DNA from: Vibrio coralliilyticus
Lineage (GTDB): Bacteria; Pseudomonadota; Gammaproteobacteria; Enterobacterales; Vibrionaceae
Direction: 5' to 3'
DNA: 64,000 nt
NCBI RefSeq assembly: GCF_024449095.1
Contig: NZ_CP024628.1
Coordinates: forward strand, 62,001 to 126,000
Shown here in pieces: positions 4,701 to 42,301 of the stretch. How positions within the stretch are numbered: position 1 is the stretch's first letter; the number at the start of each line of letters is the position of its first letter. The translations under genes were made by a program, and so were the position numbers. Under the pieces are notes generated by a model. The model worked only from the letters and a program-made list of their open reading frames with translations, did not search any database and had not been told where the DNA came from.

Positions 4701-4715
4701 GGCCTCGGTATACCG
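4701..4715 (+). repeat. Left half of split terminator palindrome; 11-bp target duplication
   Basis: The bases TCGGTATACCG (4705-4715) are repeated directly after the element at 6146-6156. Removing the element and one copy restores a perfect 20-base palindrome (GGCCTCGGTA/TACCGAGGCC), flanked by AAACAA on the left and TTTACCTTT on the right, that is, the bidirectional terminator between hdfR and the convergent gene at 6195. Confidence 0.9.
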
Positions 4716-4730
4716 CAATGTAGATCAGAT

Positions 4731-4798
4731 AAGGATCGGTTGACCGATCCTTCTGATGAGAGACAATCGGAAATCTGTTTATAGGTTTCCGATTTTTT
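4731..4798 (+). promoter_or_regulatory. Double hairpin leader with T-run before transposase
   Basis: The first hairpin is perfect: AAGGATCGG (4731-4739) with CCGATCCTT (4744-4752). The second pairs AATCGGAAA (4765-4773) with TTTCCGATT (4786-4794) and is followed by six T residues (4793-4798) that run directly into the transposase ATG at 4799. This looks like a terminator protecting the transposase from outside transcripts, and it may also give the interrupted hdfR transcript a new end. No strong ribosome site is visible outside the second stem. Confidence 0.75.
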
Positions 4799-6136
4799 AT
4801 GTCTATTCAACACTTCTTTGCCGACTTCCTTGAAGAAAACCCTGTTGATGTTGCCCAACTCACCACCTTTTCTGAACACATTCCCGATGCGTGGGTAGCT
4901 AAAGCAGCCTCACTGTCCGATAAAGCGACTATCCGTCGACGCCGATTACCGAGCGATATGGTGTTGTGGCTGATTGTGGGTATGGCTTTTTTCCGCAATG
5001 AACCCATTGCCGAAGTCGCTCGAAGAATGAACGTCTGTGCTGACGGTTTGGCTGATGAAGAGCTATTGGCAAAGAGCGCCTTAACCCAAGCAAGACAACG
5101 CTTAGGCAAAGCAGCACCCGAATGGCTGTTTAAGCAATGTGGGAAAACGTGGGGACTTGAGCGATACCCTGATGATACATGGCAAGGCTTACAAGTTTTT
5201 GCTGTCGATGGCGCTCTTTTTAGAACGGCTGACACACCAGAATTGAGGGAACATTTTGGCTCTGGAAATACGTCTAGCAACAGACAAACACCTCATCCAG
5301 TATTGAGAGTTGTGACTATGATGAATGTTCGCTCTCATGTCATCGTTGATGCGGCGATAAGCCCGTATCGCCGAGGTGAAATTCCTCTAGCGATGCCTTT
5401 CATCAACGCTCTACCAGACAACTCAGTGACGTTACTGGATAAAGGTTTTTATGGTGCAGATTTACTCCTTTCTCTGAAAAACAGTGGAATAAATAGACAC
5501 TGGCTTCTCCCTGCAAAGAAAGGAGTCAAATATACTCTACTGGATGATAAAGAAAGCAGTGACATGCTTGTGGAGATGAAGGTCTCACCGCAAGCTCGTA
5601 AAAAGAATCCTCGTCTTCCAGAAAAATGGACAGTCAGAGCCGTCAGTTATGAGGTTCAAGGTAAATCCAAAACGGTGTTTACCTCGCTTCCTAGAGAGCA
5701 GTATGACGCCCAATCTGTGGCAGAGCTTTATCATGAAAGATGGGAAATCGAATTAGGTTATCGTGACATCAAGAGCTCAATGCAACACAACGCTTTAGTA
5801 CTGAGAAGCAAAACAGTCGAACTCGTCTATCAAGAGCTGTGGGGGTTATTACTTGGTTATAACTTGGTGAGACGAGAGGCTAGTCAAGCTGCCGTTGAAC
5901 ACGGACGCTTACCTAATGAAATCAGCTTTAAGTACGCTTGCCAATTTATAGCCAGCCAGCTCAAAATGATGAGTAAAGCGGTGTCTTTAGGTAACACGCC
6001 GAAACGCTTAAAGAGCCTTCGAGGAGATTTATCTATCCTCTTTATAGACAAACGCCCTAAGCCAAATCGGCCTAGGGCGGTAAAAATATCAAAGACCCGA
6101 TACCCTGTTAATCGCTACGCGGCTCCTCTTAAGTGA
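4799..6136 (+). CDS. IS4-family transposase (copy 1)
   Basis: A 445-residue DDE transposase. An N-terminal IS4-type region (VARRMNV, LTQARQRLG) is followed by the catalytic core with AVDGALFRT (first Asp), LLDKGFYGADLL (second Asp) and YHERWEIELGYRDIK. The last is the Y-2R-3E-6K signature of the IS4 family and carries the catalytic Glu. The protein differs from copy 2 at only three residues (Thr/Ala near 122, Lys/Gln near 226 and Lys/Arg near 240). The frame is intact, so the element may still be active. Confidence 0.96.
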   Translation: MSIQHFFADFLEENPVDVAQLTTFSEHIPDAWVAKAASLSDKATIRRRRLPSDMVLWLIVGMAFFRNEPIAEVARRMNVCADGLADEELLAKSALTQARQRLGKAAPEWLFKQCGKTWGLERYPDDTWQGLQVFAVDGALFRTADTPELREHFGSGNTSSNRQTPHPVLRVVTMMNVRSHVIVDAAISPYRRGEIPLAMPFINALPDNSVTLLDKGFYGADLLLSLKNSGINRHWLLPAKKGVKYTLLDDKESSDMLVEMKVSPQARKKNPRLPEKWTVRAVSYEVQGKSKTVFTSLPREQYDAQSVAELYHERWEIELGYRDIKSSMQHNALVLRSKTVELVYQELWGLLLGYNLVRREASQAAVEHGRLPNEISFKYACQFIASQLKMMSKAVSLGNTPKRLKSLRGDLSILFIDKRPKPNRPRAVKISKTRYPVNRYAAPLK

Positions 6137-6145
6137 ACTACGTTG

Positions 6146-6161
6146 TCGGTATACCGAGGCC
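6146..6161 (+). repeat. Right half of split terminator palindrome; 11-bp target duplication
   Basis: TCGGTATACCG (6146-6156) repeats 4705-4715. The following AGGCC plus TTTACCTTT is the second arm and T-rich tail of the original hdfR terminator. Confidence 0.9.
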
Positions 6162-6194: not shown

Positions 6195-6398
6195 TTACAA
6201 ATCCATCAAACTTTCAATCGACTCTTCAACTGATAGGTTGTGATAAGAACGTATGGTTTGGCCATCGGTTGCATCAATCAAAATATTGTTGATGCTGGAT
6301 GCACCGTGTTGTTCGATCACGTTGAGGCTTTGCTCGACGCTATCATATGTAAGGGTGAGATTATCTTTTAGCACTATTGTGCATGTGTGCAGGTTCAT
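6195..6398 (-). CDS. Small hypothetical protein
   Basis: A 67-residue soluble, mildly acidic protein (starts MNLHTCTIVLKDNLTLTYDS, ends ESIESLMDL) that I do not recognise. The ATG at 6398 is preferred over a TTG two codons upstream because AAGGAAG lies 6-7 bases before it. Alternating hydrophobic residues near the N-terminus suggest a small beta-alpha fold. It is convergent with hdfR and originally shared its terminator. A good ribosome site and isolated transcription support it as real. Confidence 0.6.
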   Translation of the reverse strand: MNLHTCTIVLKDNLTLTYDSVEQSLNVIEQHGASSINNILIDATDGQTIRSYHNLSVEESIESLMDL

Positions 6399-6552
6399 AG
6401 CCAACTTCCTTATTATTTATTTGATCTGCAAATCTAACTCTAGAAGATTTTAAACTGATAGTAAATTCGATTAACTTCCGAAAATGGCTAGTATTAAATT
6501 GTGAGCTAATTAGACTCTTGTTAAGGGTTTGAAAGATAGTAGGAATGAGAGT

Positions 6553-7917
6553 GTGAATGGACTTCCATCAATAACACTGCAAGAGTGTCAAAGTGCTCGT
6601 CAGGCAAGGGATGCGCGCTTTGATGGACGCTTTTATGTTGCAGTCAAAACGACAGGCATTTTCTGTCGTCCTATCTGCCCAGCAAATCTGCCCAAAGAAG
6701 AAAATGTCGAGTATTTTGTAGAGAAGGCACAAGCGCTTCAAGCGGGTTATAGACCTTGTTTGCGCTGCCGCCCTGACAGCGCGCCTAGTTCTTGGGCATG
6801 GAAAGGGGTAGAGACTACTTTTCTTCGGGCGTTGAAAATGATTGAGCATGGTGAACTGCAAAATCACAGCCTGAGTGAATTGGCGGAGCGGCTTGGTATC
6901 AGCGATCGGTACTTGAGGCAGCTTTTCCAAGACCACCTTGGAATGGCGCCTAAGCAATACGCGCTATACCATCAACTGATGTTCGCCAAGCAACTGCTTC
7001 ACTCCAGCTCTATGTCTGTCACAGATATTGCTTTTGCAAGTGGTTTTAAAAGTGTGCGCCGATTTAATGATGCGTTTAAGCAGGTCATTAAACTAACGCC
7101 CACACAAGTGAGAAAAGAGCAAACGGTGATGACCGTGGAAAATAGTTATATTGATTTGGCTTTCAAAGGCCCTTTGGATTGGCAGCATATGTTGGATTTT
7201 TACCGTATGAGAGCCATTGAAGGTTTAGAGCGGGTGAGTCATGAAAGCTACCAGAGAAAATTTGATCTCGAAGGTACGAGAGGCTGGTTTTCGATTCGGT
7301 ATCATAAGCCCGGAGTTATGCGGGTCGAATTTGAGTTATCTGATACCCGTCGCTTGAAGGCGTTAGTTAACCAGTTACGCAGAATGTTTGACTTAGATAC
7401 GGATATTTTAACCATAGAACAAAAACTGAACTCGATTAGCCCTAACTTGATAATACGGAGTGGAATTCGTATTCCGGGAGTTTGGAGCACTTGGGAAGGT
7501 GGAATCAGGGCGATTCTCGGCCAACAGGTATCGATCAAGGCTGCGATTGGGCAGTTGAATTTGCTGGTTCAAACCTTACAGCCTGAAGAGGTGACGCATT
7601 TTCCTACTCCACAAGAAGTCGCCTTAGCGGACCTTTCTTTTTTGCGTATGCCGCACAGTCGTAAAGAAACATTAGCGCGCTTTGCACGGTTTATGGTCGA
7701 ACAACCACAAGCAAACTTAGAACAATGGCTGGATGTCAAAGGGATTGGGCCATGGACAGTCAACTATGCGAGGCTAAGAGGAGAATCAGAGGCCAACTGC
7801 TTCCTTGATGGAGACTTAGTCGTGAAAAAAGCCCTGAGTCAATTTCCTGAACTGAACATTGAAAGTGTATCTCCATGGGGGAGTTACGCCACATTCCATT
7901 GCTGGAGCCACGCATGA
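6553..7917 (+). CDS. Ada-type regulator fused to AlkA glycosylase
   Basis: A three-part alkylation-damage protein. First comes the Ada zinc domain, with the four-cysteine pattern FCRPIC...PCLRC that accepts methyl groups from phosphotriesters. Next is an AraC-type helix-turn-helix (LSELAERLGISDRYLRQLF, then SVTDIAFASGFKSVRRF). The C-terminal part is a 3-methyladenine DNA glycosylase II, with WEGGIRAILGQQVS, the HhH motif VKGIGPWTVNYA and the catalytic Asp in LDGDLVV. It should sense methylation, activate its own operon and excise alkylated purines. The start is uncertain: GTG 6553 follows AGTAGG at good spacing, while a TTG at 6529 has GGG almost touching it. Its stop overlaps the ogt start by 4 bases. 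Confidence 0.92.
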   Translation: MNGLPSITLQECQSARQARDARFDGRFYVAVKTTGIFCRPICPANLPKEENVEYFVEKAQALQAGYRPCLRCRPDSAPSSWAWKGVETTFLRALKMIEHGELQNHSLSELAERLGISDRYLRQLFQDHLGMAPKQYALYHQLMFAKQLLHSSSMSVTDIAFASGFKSVRRFNDAFKQVIKLTPTQVRKEQTVMTVENSYIDLAFKGPLDWQHMLDFYRMRAIEGLERVSHESYQRKFDLEGTRGWFSIRYHKPGVMRVEFELSDTRRLKALVNQLRRMFDLDTDILTIEQKLNSISPNLIIRSGIRIPGVWSTWEGGIRAILGQQVSIKAAIGQLNLLVQTLQPEEVTHFPTPQEVALADLSFLRMPHSRKETLARFARFMVEQPQANLEQWLDVKGIGPWTVNYARLRGESEANCFLDGDLVVKKALSQFPELNIESVSPWGSYATFHCWSHA

Positions 7918-37179: not shown

Positions 37180-38103
37180 ATGAATAACTACAAACTGCTA
37201 CGCCCATTGTTGGTGCTGCTCCAAACTCGTAGCTTGACCGAGGCTGCACTGCAGCTCAACGTCACTCAGTCAGCGATGAGCCGAACCTTGAGTCAGATAA
37301 GAACGGCCTTTGATGACCCGATTTTGATTCGGGAAGGCAAACAGTTTGTAGTCAGTGCCAGAGGCCAGCAGTTACTCGCTCAACTGCCTGAGTTGATTGG
37401 GTCATTGGATGAGCTTTATGCAGTGGAAGCATTTTTGCCTCATGCTTGTCAAAGAGAGTTCAGACTGGCCTACACGGCATTTTTGTCTGAATCGAGTGTG
37501 CCTCTGGTGTCTGCTGAACTGCTTAGATTGGCCCCAAACGCAGGGGTAAATGGAGAGCTGTGGCAAGATCAGCATGTTAGCGTTCTCGGTGACAGCCCGA
37601 TTGATGTACTGGCGACCACACTCGACTACTTTCCTGAGAATATCTACGGCAAAAAATTGCTTGAAGATGAATATGTAGTACTGATGTCTGGTAATCATTC
37701 ATTGGCTGACGCTAGCCTTGAAATGGATGATTATTTTAGTGCTTCCCATGTGATGGTGCATGGTATGCGAGAGATGCGTCAGTATGTGGGCGAGCAGTTT
37801 GAACATCGCAAGGTTCAGCGTAAGGTGATCGCCAGGGTGCCATCGTTCACTGCGGCAATGGAATTAGTCAGTCAGAGTGACGCACTGGTTACCGCGCCTT
37901 TGCATTTGGCGGGCTATTTTTCTAATCGGTTTGACTACGTTGTAAAACCATTGCCCTTTGATTTGCCCAAGCATAGCTACTATCTGCTGTGGCACAGTCG
38001 GCATCAAAAAGATCCTGCCCATCGATGGTTTCGGGAGCAGAGCTTTGCAGCATTACAGCGGCATTTGAAGCTGATGCATGCTTCTGGCGTTGAACAGATG
38101 TAA
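37180..38103 (+). CDS. LysR-family transcriptional regulator
   Basis: A 307-residue LysR regulator; helix-turn-helix at about residues 16-45 (RSLTEAALQLNVTQSAMSRTLSQIR), then a periplasmic-binding-protein-like effector domain. The sequence from PILIREGKQF and the overall layout resemble the NodD/NahR-like subgroup. Target genes unknown; the co-transcribed GNAT gene is one candidate. GAAGGTGAT precedes the ATG. Its stop codon lies at the edge of a terminator palindrome that was split by IS4-family copy 2. Confidence 0.9.
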   Translation: MNNYKLLRPLLVLLQTRSLTEAALQLNVTQSAMSRTLSQIRTAFDDPILIREGKQFVVSARGQQLLAQLPELIGSLDELYAVEAFLPHACQREFRLAYTAFLSESSVPLVSAELLRLAPNAGVNGELWQDQHVSVLGDSPIDVLATTLDYFPENIYGKKLLEDEYVVLMSGNHSLADASLEMDDYFSASHVMVHGMREMRQYVGEQFEHRKVQRKVIARVPSFTAAMELVSQSDALVTAPLHLAGYFSNRFDYVVKPLPFDLPKHSYYLLWHSRHQKDPAHRWFREQSFAALQRHLKLMHASGVEQM

Positions 38104-38109
38104 AAAAGC

Positions 38110-38121
38110 CCTGATAGTCAG
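38110..38121 (+). repeat. 12-bp target duplication, left side of IS copy 2
   Basis: CCTGATAGTCAG is repeated at 39552-39563. Joining the flanks restores a terminator with stem AGCCCTGA/TCAGGGCT around TAG, flanked by AAAAA and TTTTT, between the convergent LysR and malT genes. Confidence 0.92.
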
Positions 38122-39551
38122 CAACGTAGTTCACTTAAGAGGAGCTGCGTAGCGATTAACAGGGTATCGGGTCTTTGATATTTTTACCGCCCTAGGCCGA
38201 TTTGGCTTAGGGCGTTTGTCTATAAAGAGGATAGATAAATCTCCTCGAAGGCTCTTTAAGCGTTTCGGCGTGTTACCTAAAGACACCGCTTTACTCATCA
38301 TTTTGAGCTGGCTGGCTATAAACTGGCAAGCGTACTTAAAGCTGATTTCATTAGGTAAGCGTCCGTGTTCAACGGCAGCTTGACTAGCCTCTCGTCTCAC
38401 CAAGTTATAACCAAGTAATAACCCCCACAGCTCTTGATAGACGAGTTCGACTGTTTTGCTTCTCAACACTAAAGCGTTGTGTTGCATTGAGCTCTTGATG
38501 TCACGGTAACCTAATTCGATTTCCCATCTTTCATGATAAAGCTCTGCCACAGATTGAGCGTCATACTGCTCTCTAGGAAGCGAGGTAAACACCGTTTTGG
38601 ATTTACCTTGAACCTCATAACTGACGGCTCTGACTGTCCATTTTTCTGGAAGACGAGGATTCTTTTTACGAGCTTGCGGTGAGACCTTCATCTCCACAAG
38701 CATGTCACTGCTTTCTTTATCATCCAGTAGAGTATATTTGACTCCTTTCCTTGCAGGGAGAAGCCAGTGTCTATTTATTCCACTGTTTTGCAGAGAAAGG
38801 AGTAAATCTGCACCATAAAAACCTTTATCCAGTAACGTCACTGAGTTGTCTGGTAGAGCGTTGATGAAAGGCATCGCTAGAGGAATTTCACCTCGGCGAT
38901 ACGGGCTTATCGCCGCATCAACGATGACATGAGAGCGAACATTCATCATAGTCACAACTCTCAATACTGGATGAGGTGTTTGTCTGTTGCTAGACGTATT
39001 TCCAGAGCCAAAATGTTCCCTCAATTCTGGTGTGTCAGCCGTTCTAAAAAGAGCGCCATCGACAGCAAAAACTTGTAAGCCTTGCCATGCATCATCAGGG
39101 TATCGCTCAAGTCCCCACGTTTTCCCACATTGCTTAAACAGCCATTCGGGTGCTGCTTTGCCTAAGCGTTGTCTTGCTTGGGTTAAGGCGCTCTTTGCCA
39201 ATAGCTCTTCATCAGCCAAACCGTCAGCACAGACATTCATTCTTCGAGCGACTTCGGCAATGGGTTCATTGCGGAAAAAAGCCATACCCACAATCAGCCA
39301 CAACACCATATCGCTCGGTAATCGGCGTCGACGGATAGTCGCTTTATCGGACAGTGAGGCTGCTTTAGCTACCCACGCATCGGGAATGTGTTCAGAAAAG
39401 GTGGTGAGTTGGGCAACATCAACAGGGTTTTCTTCAAGGAAGTCGGCAAAGAAGTGTTGAATAGACATAAAAAATCGGAAACCTATAAACAGATTTCCGA
39501 TTGTCTCTCATCAGAAGGATCGGTCAACCGATCCTTATCTGATCTACATTG
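38122..39551 (-). mobile_element. IS4-family insertion sequence, copy 2 (1430 bp, inverted)
   Basis: Same ends and length as copy 1 at 4716-6145, in the opposite orientation, with its own different 12-bp target duplication. It therefore transposed independently and is not one arm of a composite transposon. It sits in the centre of a bidirectional terminator palindrome and carries the same double-hairpin leader (39469-39536 on the minus strand). Confidence 0.95.
38131..39468 (-). CDS. IS4-family transposase (copy 2)
   Basis: A 445-residue DDE transposase of the IS4 family with the YREK signature (YHERWEIELGYRDIK). The frame is intact. Relative to copy 1 it has Ala, Gln and Arg where that copy has Thr, Lys and Lys. 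A T-run of the leader terminator touches its ATG, so expression should be low. Confidence 0.96.
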   Translation of the reverse strand: MSIQHFFADFLEENPVDVAQLTTFSEHIPDAWVAKAASLSDKATIRRRRLPSDMVLWLIVGMAFFRNEPIAEVARRMNVCADGLADEELLAKSALTQARQRLGKAAPEWLFKQCGKTWGLERYPDDAWQGLQVFAVDGALFRTADTPELREHFGSGNTSSNRQTPHPVLRVVTMMNVRSHVIVDAAISPYRRGEIPLAMPFINALPDNSVTLLDKGFYGADLLLSLQNSGINRHWLLPARKGVKYTLLDDKESSDMLVEMKVSPQARKKNPRLPEKWTVRAVSYEVQGKSKTVFTSLPREQYDAQSVAELYHERWEIELGYRDIKSSMQHNALVLRSKTVELVYQELWGLLLGYNLVRREASQAAVEHGRLPNEISFKYACQFIASQLKMMSKAVSLGNTPKRLKSLRGDLSILFIDKRPKPNRPRAVKISKTRYPVNRYAAPLK

Positions 39552-39563
39552 CCTGATAGTCAG
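39552..39563 (+). repeat. 12-bp target duplication, right side of IS copy 2
   Basis: CCTGATAGTCAG, identical to 38110-38121; continues into GGCTTTTT, the second arm and T-run of the split terminator. This arm now lies alone after the malT stop. Confidence 0.92.
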
Positions 39564-39592
39564 GGCTTTTTGCTGAGATTGAGGGCCTAGTA

Positions 39593-42301
39593 TCAGTAAC
39601 CCATTAATTGCAGGAGGTTTTCTGCTGTTTTTATCGCCTCTTTTCGATTCGCGATATTGAGTTTCTGGTACAGGTTACGAATATGAGTTTTGATTGTGGT
39701 GCCCGCTACATCCAACTCTTGAGCAATTTGCTCGTTACTAAAGCCAGAATAGATCAGGCCAAGTACCTGCCATTCACGTTGAGTTAGTGGGCTGGTGCGA
39801 ACCAACTCTGGAATATTCGGATGGTTAACCAGCTTCTCAACAAATTCTTCATCAAAGTGAACCGAGCGGCTACGTTGAGTCGTCGATATGTCCTTAAGCA
39901 ACTGCTGAGCGCGGTGGCGTTCAAGGTCACCCAACTCATTTTTGTTGACCAGTTTTTCGAGAATATGACCGATCTTGCCGCCTTCAACGAGGAAGTTACC
40001 CAAAATCCCTGTTTGATTTGTCAGTTCCAGTGCTTGTTTGAGCAGTAACTTGGCGCGCTCTTCATCTTGCTGTGTGGTCGCCAGTACCGCTTCAACAATC
40101 AGGTTGCGGTTATTGTCGGTGACCAGACTGTTGTGATTCGCTTGTTCTTGAAGGAATTTAAGCGTTTCAGCCGCTTGATCAAACATACCCAGATTGATTT
40201 GTGCACGGGAGATGTTGCGCCACTGGAGTTGAGTAAAATGGTTACACGCTTTTTCTGGGCGAGGTGTGGTTTCTAGCCAATGTTGAATGGCTTCCATATC
40301 GCCTCGCGCCTGCCAGAACAGAATCAGAGACAACGAAGCGTTCGCCGTCCAGTCAACATGGTAGGTGGACTGCTTCAGCAGGTGAACAATTTGCTCAATG
40401 AACTTGTTGGCTTTGTCTAACTCACCACGCCCAATAGCGATTCGCGCCAGCATAGAGTAGCTATGTAAGTGCTTACTTGGACTGTGATTACCCAGTACAT
40501 CTAAGCCTTTATATGCGCATTCCTCGGCTTCGTCGAGACGATTCCAACACCAGAAAATCTGTGCACGAATACGTAGCAGGAACTCATGCATTGGAACTTG
40601 CTGCAGTTGCTGCTCCTCGATTAGCTTGAAGGCGTTTTCCTGTACTTCAAAGGCAGCCTGTACATAGCCCTGAGCAATGAGAATTTCACTTTGCTGAAGC
40701 ATTGCCCATAACGCTTGATGGTAAACCTGATACTGGCGAGCCAGCTTTTCGGTTTGCTGCATCATAGGCAGTGCGCGACTCAGATGGCCTAACACGTGGT
40801 TCACTTCACCAACAACGGATGTTGCGACAATGCGACTGCGATACACTGTGCTGTCGAGCTGTCCAAGAGACAGTTCAGCCAGCTCCAGTGCCTTTTCTGG
40901 TTCGTTCTGGTTAATCGCGACCTGAGCACGTAAGGCGTTAAACTCTCCCTGCTCTTTGGTGCTTAATGTGACGTTGAAGGCTTTCATTTGCTCATCCGCT
41001 TTGGATAGCAGGTCACCAACATCGTTATACCTGTGCTGACTTTGCGCTAACCAGGCCTGCAACATGCACAATTTCGGTTCACTATAGAGTTGTTCAGGGG
41101 CGAGGGTGTTAATCGCTTTTTCTACAGTTTGAAGCTCGCCGCTGTTGAACATTTTCCAGCCATATTGGCTCAAGATGTCGGCAGTTAATTGGCGGTTTCC
41201 TGCTTTTTGAGCATGACGAAGTGCTTGGTGAGGAGAAGAAAGCTTTAACCATGCTTGAGCCGCAGTCTGATGCAGTTCTTGCTCTTGCTGAGGTATACGA
41301 GCAGAGCGCTCGTGAGCGAGAAATTCAGCAAACAAGTTGTGGAAGCGATACCAGTTTTGTTCGCCTTCAAGTGGGTGGATAAATAAGCCGTAGCGGTTGA
41401 GTGACTCAATCATGCTAAGAGCGTCATCACGTTTGGTCAAAGTCGATACCAGAGCATCATTAAAGTGATCAAGTACAGAACATTGCAGTAGAAATAAACG
41501 TGTTTCTGTATCCAAGAGATCGAACACTTCTTCAACCAGATAGTCCCACAGGTGAGCGTGATTAAATTGAGAAAAGGATTCAGCAGACTGAGCTAAGGTT
41601 TTGTGTTGATGCTGCGCCTGCAATGCGATTAATTGTAGCGCTGACGGCCAGCCTTCTACATAATTTCGTAAATTGTCGGCAGTCGCGTCGTCAATGCCAT
41701 CAGCCACTCGTTGATTAAAAAAGCGAGTGGTTTCTTCGGTATCAAATGCCAAAAGGTCATCGCCAATCTCGATCATGAGGTCGCGAACACGCAGGTTTGC
41801 AGTCCCTAACGGTGGTGTTGCGCGACTGGTGACGACCAGCGTCAGATTATCCGGCATGTGCTTGAGGAAAAAACGGATCGCTTCATGGATGTCATCATTA
41901 GAGATAAGGTGGTAATCATCCAAGACCAGATAGCACTCTTGGTGAAAATTGGCGATTTCAGCGAACACTTCACTAAATAGTGAGTGAAGAGAAGAAAACT
42001 GGCGCTTTTCAGCCAGTTTCTGAGAATTCGGACAAGCGTTGTGCGTGGCCTTGTTCAATGCTTGGATCAGATAGTTGATAAAGCGGAATGAGTCGTTGTC
42101 ACTCTCATCTATACTGTACCAGCCCGTGTTGGTTTTGTCGGCTAACCACTGTGATGCCATGGTTGTTTTGCCATACCCTGCGGGCGAACGGAAAAGAATG
42201 AGTTTATAACAGGGGGCTTGCTGTAATAAATCGAGAACTCTTGGGCGGACAATTGCGTTGTGTAAACGCCCTGGACGGGTTAATTTCGAAGGAATCCACA
42301 T
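39593..42301 (-). CDS. malT: Maltose regulon activator MalT
   Basis: A 902-residue LAL/STAND activator that binds ATP and maltotriose and turns on maltodextrin genes. Walker A is [10 protein letters not shown] (about residues 38-47), and Walker B-like LVLDDYH is near 122. A long helical superhelix follows, then a C-terminal LuxR-type helix-turn-helix ([36 protein letters not shown]). The length matches E. coli MalT (901). It is divergent from malP across a 557-base gap, as in other Vibrio mal loci. Its original downstream terminator is interrupted by IS copy 2. Confidence 0.97.

Follow-up and report, generated by a model that had tools for sequence, protein, structure and literature searches.

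A 64,000-nucleotide stretch of Vibrio coralliilyticus DNA (the window) carries two copies of one insertion sequence (IS), and copy 2 lies between the genes lysR and malT, which run toward each other. We asked what the transposase recognizes at such a place, and if a bidirectional transcription terminator is a chosen target or simply a spot where an insertion can survive. When the flanks of copy 2 are joined they restore AAAAAAGCCCTGATAGTCAGGGCTTTTT, which lies between the stop codons of lysR and malT, in agreement with the sequence-only reading that copy 2 splits a bidirectional terminator between convergent genes (Table 1). That reading had also taken the two copies to be the same element, and they are indeed near-identical and inverted. 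The span it gave for copy 2, 38101-39573, does hold the element and is slightly wider than the element plus its duplications.

Table 1. Features of the two IS copies and their surroundings, in window coordinates.
Feature	Coordinates	Strand	Description
IS element copy 1	4716..6145	+	arms 99% complementary to copy 2
Transposase of copy 1	4799-6136
Left target duplication, copy 1	4705..4715	.	11 bp, TCGGTATACCG
Right target duplication, copy 1	6146..6156	.	11 bp, TCGGTATACCG
lysR	37180..38103	+	LysR-family regulator; ends at copy 2 target
Split bidirectional terminator, left half	38101..38121	.	A-tract, GCC, duplication; overlaps lysR stop codon
Left target duplication, copy 2	38110..38121	.	12 bp, CCTGATAGTCAG
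IS element copy 2	38122..39551	-	1430 bp, IS4 family, IS4 subgroup
Terminal repeats, copy 2			CAATGTAGATCAGATAAG / CAACGTAGTTCACTTAAG
Transposase of copy 2	38131..39468	-	445 aa, one ORF
Right-end inward-facing terminator-like hairpin	38188..38214	+	12 pairs; within transposase gene 3' end
"Guard" hairpin, inward-facing, terminator-like	39473..39502	-	13 pairs; T-run adjoins transposase ATG
Promoter-like TTGACC-16-GACAAT	39500..39527	-	consensus match only
Right target duplication, copy 2	39552..39563	.	12 bp, CCTGATAGTCAG
Split bidirectional terminator, right half	39552..39573	.	duplication, GGC, T-tract
malT	39593..42301	-	reaches copy 2 target from opposite side

On the features tested, the element belongs to the IS4 family and to its IS4 subgroup. 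The transposase has Nterm_IS4 and DDE_Tnp_1 domains, corresponds to NF033592 (IS4 family transposase) and is encoded, as in the rest of the family, by a single ORF. Across 12 aligned transposases the catalytic triad D137, D214 and E318 is invariant, with spacers of 76 and 103 that fall within the family pattern D(60-110)D(100-150)E, and Y311, R314, E318 and K325 of the Y(2)R(3)E(6)K motif are likewise invariant. The left end, CAATGTAGATCAGATAAG, fits the subgroup consensus -AATR--------WTW----, and the right end, CAACGTAGTTCACTTAAG, which we counted as fitting, has C for T at position 4. The size of the element and the duplications of 11 and 12 bp in the window lie within the 1400-1650 bp and 10-13 bp of the subgroup; duplications of 10-13 bp were present at 84 of the 87 sites surveyed below and of 14 bp at three. 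A profile search of solved structures gave no match at E 0.01. Transposition in the IS4 subgroup is cut-and-paste.

The target of copy 1 resembles that of copy 2. Its duplication sits within AAGGCCTCGGTATACCGAGGCCTT, and the two targets share an A-tract, GCC facing GGC and a T-tract, contrary to the earlier statement that they are unrelated in sequence. The term convergent is less secure for copy 1, because the ORF facing it on the minus strand (6195-6404) is only 69 aa; the position rule that we applied (ORFs of at least 70 aa, open ends allowed) classes the site as tandem. Further downstream, at 6529-7917, an ORF joins Ada metal-binding, AraC-type HTH and AlkA N-terminal domains.

We looked in relatives for an ancestral empty site lacking the palindrome, which the sequence-only reading had named as the observation that would count against it. 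In G100, the closest relative found, which is of the same genus, the gap between lysR and malT (locus L146) carries AAAAAGCCCTGACTATCAGGGCTTTTTT, an intact hairpin with no element in it. Four host copies were tried against relatives; three were informative, all three of these places have the hairpin, and two show paired stem changes. The G100 empty sites for host copies L010 and L002 both carry the hairpin with paired stem changes, and further species were compared at the L002 place, where the hairpin of one (L218) is similar and that of two others (L219, L220) is different. The fourth copy tried, copy 1, was uninformative, since G100 and G137 can be aligned with it on the downstream side only. 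One could imagine that the hairpins were created by insertion and were absent before, for which we found no support; element-free relatives have a hairpin at three places (L146; L216; L217 and L218), with paired changes at two, and we give this explanation practically no weight.

The sequence-only reading had proposed a survey of more copies. Searched at the protein level, the host genome (5.02 Mb, 3 contigs) gave 34 matches, among them ten full-length copies of the window element, pieces of it and, at 36-37% identity, a second IS4-family element in six copies. In a genus sample, 7 of 227 genomes (host included) had a match at E 1e-150, and three were examined in depth. From named genomes 42 of 80 loci were used, 38 being left out by eye (partial, at contig ends or very distant relatives), and the survey also took in six extra regions and 21 E. 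coli IS4 loci, namely that of K-12 and 20 picked by eye among the 60 matches listed of 2739 records. Two ends and an exactly matching duplication of 8 bp or longer could be assigned in 96 of 133 copies, and 87 of these were non-redundant by left flank; the other 37 copies were dropped before counting. We assigned the clades ourselves: clade A comprises the window element and its relatives at about 68% identity or more, clade B the Acidovorax type at 39% identity, and clade E the E. coli IS4. Each site was scored by the number of complementary pairs, out of 11, in a palindrome sought within 1.5 bp of the duplication centre, and 108,560 positions in the flanks of the surveyed loci served as controls.

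In the host genome 13 non-redundant copies have two ends (L001-L013; three are internally broken), and every one of them scores 9 to 11 of 11 pairs. At least 8 pairs were found at 70 of the 87 sites, which come from Vibrionaceae, one Aeromonadaceae genome, Pseudomonas, Acidovorax and E. coli IS4. By comparison, 1.5% of the control positions reach 8 pairs and 0.04% reach 10, so the earlier claim that two of two copies in terminator-like sites exceeds chance is borne out, and the larger survey is palindrome-centred as well. Sites with at least 8 pairs number 40 of 45 in clade A, 3 of 6 in C1, 4 of 5 in C2, 3 of 3 in C3 and 1 of 2 for two distant MAG elements; many sites come from few genomes, as in clade B (7 of 12), where 11 of the 12 are from one Acidovorax genome, and the E. 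coli IS4 set (12 of 14) over-counts slightly, because L210 and L212 have the same target sequence and L203 and L209 are the same locus. Fewer than 8 pairs were found at 17 sites, and L020, L041, L075 and L104 have no clear palindrome and lack at least one tract. Duplication length ranges from 10 to 14 bp, and the duplication centre coincides exactly with the palindrome centre in 48 of the 70 palindromic sites. The parity of the duplication length equals that of the palindrome in 48 of 61 sites with at least 9 pairs (p 8e-6), indicating that the cut positions track the two arms.

Outside the duplication the targets also have sequence in common. The strongest signal on both flanks, in clades A, B, C and E alike, is an A six and five bases out from the duplication, and the A-tract is followed by G+C-rich bases that each clade spells differently: CC (A), GCG (B), cC (C) and CGG (E). 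AAA is present in the left 12 bases at 73 of 87 sites, TTT in the right 12 at 66 and both at 57. The target rule for IS4 is AAA-N20-TTT, and the E. coli K-12 IS4 site fits it. A half-site profile was built from clade A and run over 1.6 Mb of host DNA, where 78 windows score at least 16 and 63 of these are palindromes.

The regular presence of a palindrome could also mean that the transposase recognizes the hairpin or cruciform itself, in supercoil-extruded DNA or a transcribed terminator, with sequence being secondary. We compared 41 of the 45 clade-A sites (leave-one-out score of at least 8; two in ORFs) with 305 intergenic background windows by logistic regression. Palindromy added weakly to the half-site score (chi2 6.9, p 0.009) and gave p 0.036 in a stratified CMH test of 39 intergenic sites, which together with the exact dyad centring speaks for hairpin recognition, though neither p value is clean because the sites come from many genomes and the background from one. 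Half-site score added far more once palindromy was given (chi2 29, p 6e-8), and AAA and TTT persist at low-pair sites such as those of E. coli K-12 IS4 (L165, 4 pairs) and L200 (7 pairs); both results argue against the hairpin as the primary cue. A smaller 461-kb test of structure against sequence, run within score bins, gave no significant inner-pair difference. We therefore regard half-site sequence as the main cue and recognition of the hairpin itself as unlikely; hairpin structure may contribute, although it is not required to explain the sites, because half-site sequence predicts them better than palindromy does.

Classed by neighbours, the 87 sites comprise 31 convergent, 35 tandem, 2 divergent and 19 inside ORFs, and the median distance from the dyad to the 3' end of a gene ending there is 35 nt (n 97). 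The sequence-only reading had held that the targets share dyad symmetry and a position between convergent genes; the first part stands (70 of 87), whereas the second is common but not general, with 31 of 68 intergenic sites (46%) being convergent compared with 1200 of 8756 intergenic sample positions (13.7%). This enrichment is that of terminators themselves, because intergenic palindromic background windows with a score of at least 12 show much the same (59 of 111 convergent). A transposase without target preference, whose random insertions survive only in harmless intergenic spots, would account for 68 of 87 sites being outside ORFs and for the depletion of ORF sites (1 of 37 clade-A sites with a score of at least 12 lie in ORFs, whereas 85 of 242 background windows do). 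Selection also removes insertions in genes, so it can be told apart from target choice only in part. Harmlessness, however, would not place 70 of 87 insertions within 1.5 bp of a hairpin dyad, and intergenic palindromic windows with a half-site score of at least 8 number 166 in 1.6 Mb, which is about 5 kb out of an intergenic total of about 188 kb. We consider insertion without preference very improbable.

The centring, the facing A and T tracts in four clades and the hairpins at ancestral empty sites are direct results of the computation. We conclude, at a probability of about 0.75, that this is an IS of the IS4 subgroup whose transposase picks symmetric facing half-sites, each an A-tract and a few G+C-rich bases, that amount to the signature of a bidirectional intrinsic terminator. 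Because the half-site pair is that signature, the 10-14 bp duplication would fall on the hairpin centre. In double-stranded DNA the transposase itself would read these half-sites, each subunit probably taking one, and strand transfer at 10-14 bp would be set by the two half-sites. Targeting is well supported by sequence, the protein-DNA reading is one that we infer, and the replacement of the broken terminator, considered below, is a model.

Several loci outside the counts or beside them deserve mention. Among the 37 dropped copies, 14 have both ends; AAA on the left and TTT on the right are present in 9 of the 14, and several of the 14 carry halves of different hairpins. Neither L039 nor L042 of G223 has matching duplications, and one hairpin (shared CCACAACTGTGG) is restored when the left flank of L039 is put together with the right flank of L042, a pattern that recombination between copies of the element would produce; their remaining flanks mismatch each other, indicating that further copies or events were involved. 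Four Acidovorax temperans copies are without matching duplications (L074, L081, L083 and L100), with one right flank common to L074 and L100 and another to L081 and L083, which looks like a duplicated or rearranged stretch. The G000 fragments L029 and L023, about 9 kb apart, lie at apparent halves of one hairpin (...GCCCGGCATGACCG / CGGCATGACCGGGC...), as if later DNA had broken the element apart. In E. coli, L210 and L212 have IS4 at an identical target sequence in different genomic contexts, suggesting that the target may itself lie in a mobile repeat. IS4-family elements of 36-38% identity in the same or related genomes (G000 L014-L018 and L020; G223 L134, L135, L137, L139 and L141; G194 L189-L191) have at least 8 of 11 pairs at 10 of 14 sites.

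We also scanned the ends of the elements. In ten representatives (four from clade A, two from B, three from C and one from E) every end, 20 of 20, has a terminator-like hairpin that faces inward and lies within 105 nt of that end; dinucleotide shuffles give one in 39 of 400 cases, and hairpins facing outward occur at 3 of 20 ends. The independent evidence is smaller than 20 ends because the clade-A representatives are homologous. Stems vary from clade to clade, and so does the placing of the right-end hairpin: elements of B, C2, C3 and E have it over the terminal repeat, within the terminal 31 nt, whereas in A and C1 it is set farther inward, at about 60-93 nt. The distant MAG elements L088 and L104, whose targets are without A and T tracts, were scanned too and excluded from the shuffle test; an inward hairpin was found at 1 of their 4 ends (the left of L088, and neither of L104). 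A second, independent scanner detects both copy 2 hairpins, with 6 terminator-like sites in the region versus a shuffle mean of 1.4, and also lists 39552-39564 with its T-tract in the right half of the split terminator. Run on E. coli IS4, the same scanner found the right-end hairpin and did not find the left guard.

In 7 of the 10 elements (A, C1, C3 and E) the -10 of a promoter-like TTGANN-16-NANAAT match covers the beginning of the left hairpin, which leaves 9-12 of the 12-15 stem pairs upstream of the putative start. In copy 2 the -10 likewise overlaps the first bases of the guard stem and the putative start is inside the left arm. The overlap was not seen in C2 and the two B elements. For each element the best match in its first 120 nt was taken, without a chance test, and promoter-like matches are at chance level overall (4 in the copy 2 region versus a shuffle mean of 3.1; 1 in E. 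coli IS4 versus 1.2).

Because all 20 ends carry inward-facing hairpins, an exchange of terminators is suggested. In such a model the broken terminator would be replaced by one hairpin for each incoming direction, and the hairpin at each end may both take over termination for the neighbours and keep outside transcription off the transposase gene. The element's own transcript would escape the guard, its -10 overlapping the stem and its start lying inside the left arm, and read-through from a neighbour would form the whole left hairpin and stop before the transposase ATG. That the IS4 subgroup aims at bidirectional terminators and repays them with an inward-facing pair at its ends, the left one disarmed only for its own transcript, is a tentative proposal that we hold to be somewhat doubtful, because the promoter matches are at chance level and the left hairpin of E. 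coli IS4 escaped the second scanner. Inside the elements, half-site scores peak at 6.0 to 11.6, below the clade target medians of 15.9 to 21.0 (medians not leave-one-out), and in clade C the best internal scores overlap the weakest tenth of targets; this is only a hint that the elements may avoid themselves.

Target-arm specificity has been reported for the IS4 family (De Palmenaer et al. 2008, PMC2266710), and the word "terminator" is absent from the main text of that paper, its Figure 3 consensus targets aside. With the IS4 subgroup as described in that text, the window element has in common the catalytic motifs, single ORF, size, ends and duplication length; differing from that description, the arms are identified here as bidirectional terminators, and inward-facing hairpins are described at both ends. 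Group IIC introns target terminators, but as portrayed in the part of the source used here (PMC4424553) they are retroelements with a ribozyme and a reverse transcriptase, whereas the window element is a DDE transposon. A Pfam scan of the element ORF found only transposase domains and no reverse transcriptase. To our knowledge, group IIC introns make no target duplication.

The insertion sequences IS1397, ISKpn1 and ISRm22, the last of which belongs to the IS4 family, target REPs and, in the portion of the article drawn on here (PMC1525189), likewise insert into extragenic palindromes. REPs form a family of repeats, whereas by stem comparison the targets here differ from site to site. Tn916 has a terminator insulator near one end that shields its genes from outside transcription (PMC11658703), as the IS hairpins may do; it is conjugative, with one such insulator described there, whereas here a hairpin is present at each end of a small IS that splits a host terminator. 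PMC11708052, as far as its consulted text goes, concerns other IS families. Our literature search found no paper naming intrinsic terminators as targets of IS4-type elements, which is weak evidence of absence with most subscription journals outside the search. New here are the inward-facing terminator-like hairpins at all 20 ends of the ten representatives, with a putative function.

Terminator-centred insertion was seen across several bacterial groups. If true, our reading would account for the published target-arm specificity of some members of the IS4 subgroup and predict the landing places of new insertions. An exchange of one terminator for another could let the element multiply with little damage to the host, and would offer a testable model of a mobile element that limits its cost by replacing what it breaks.
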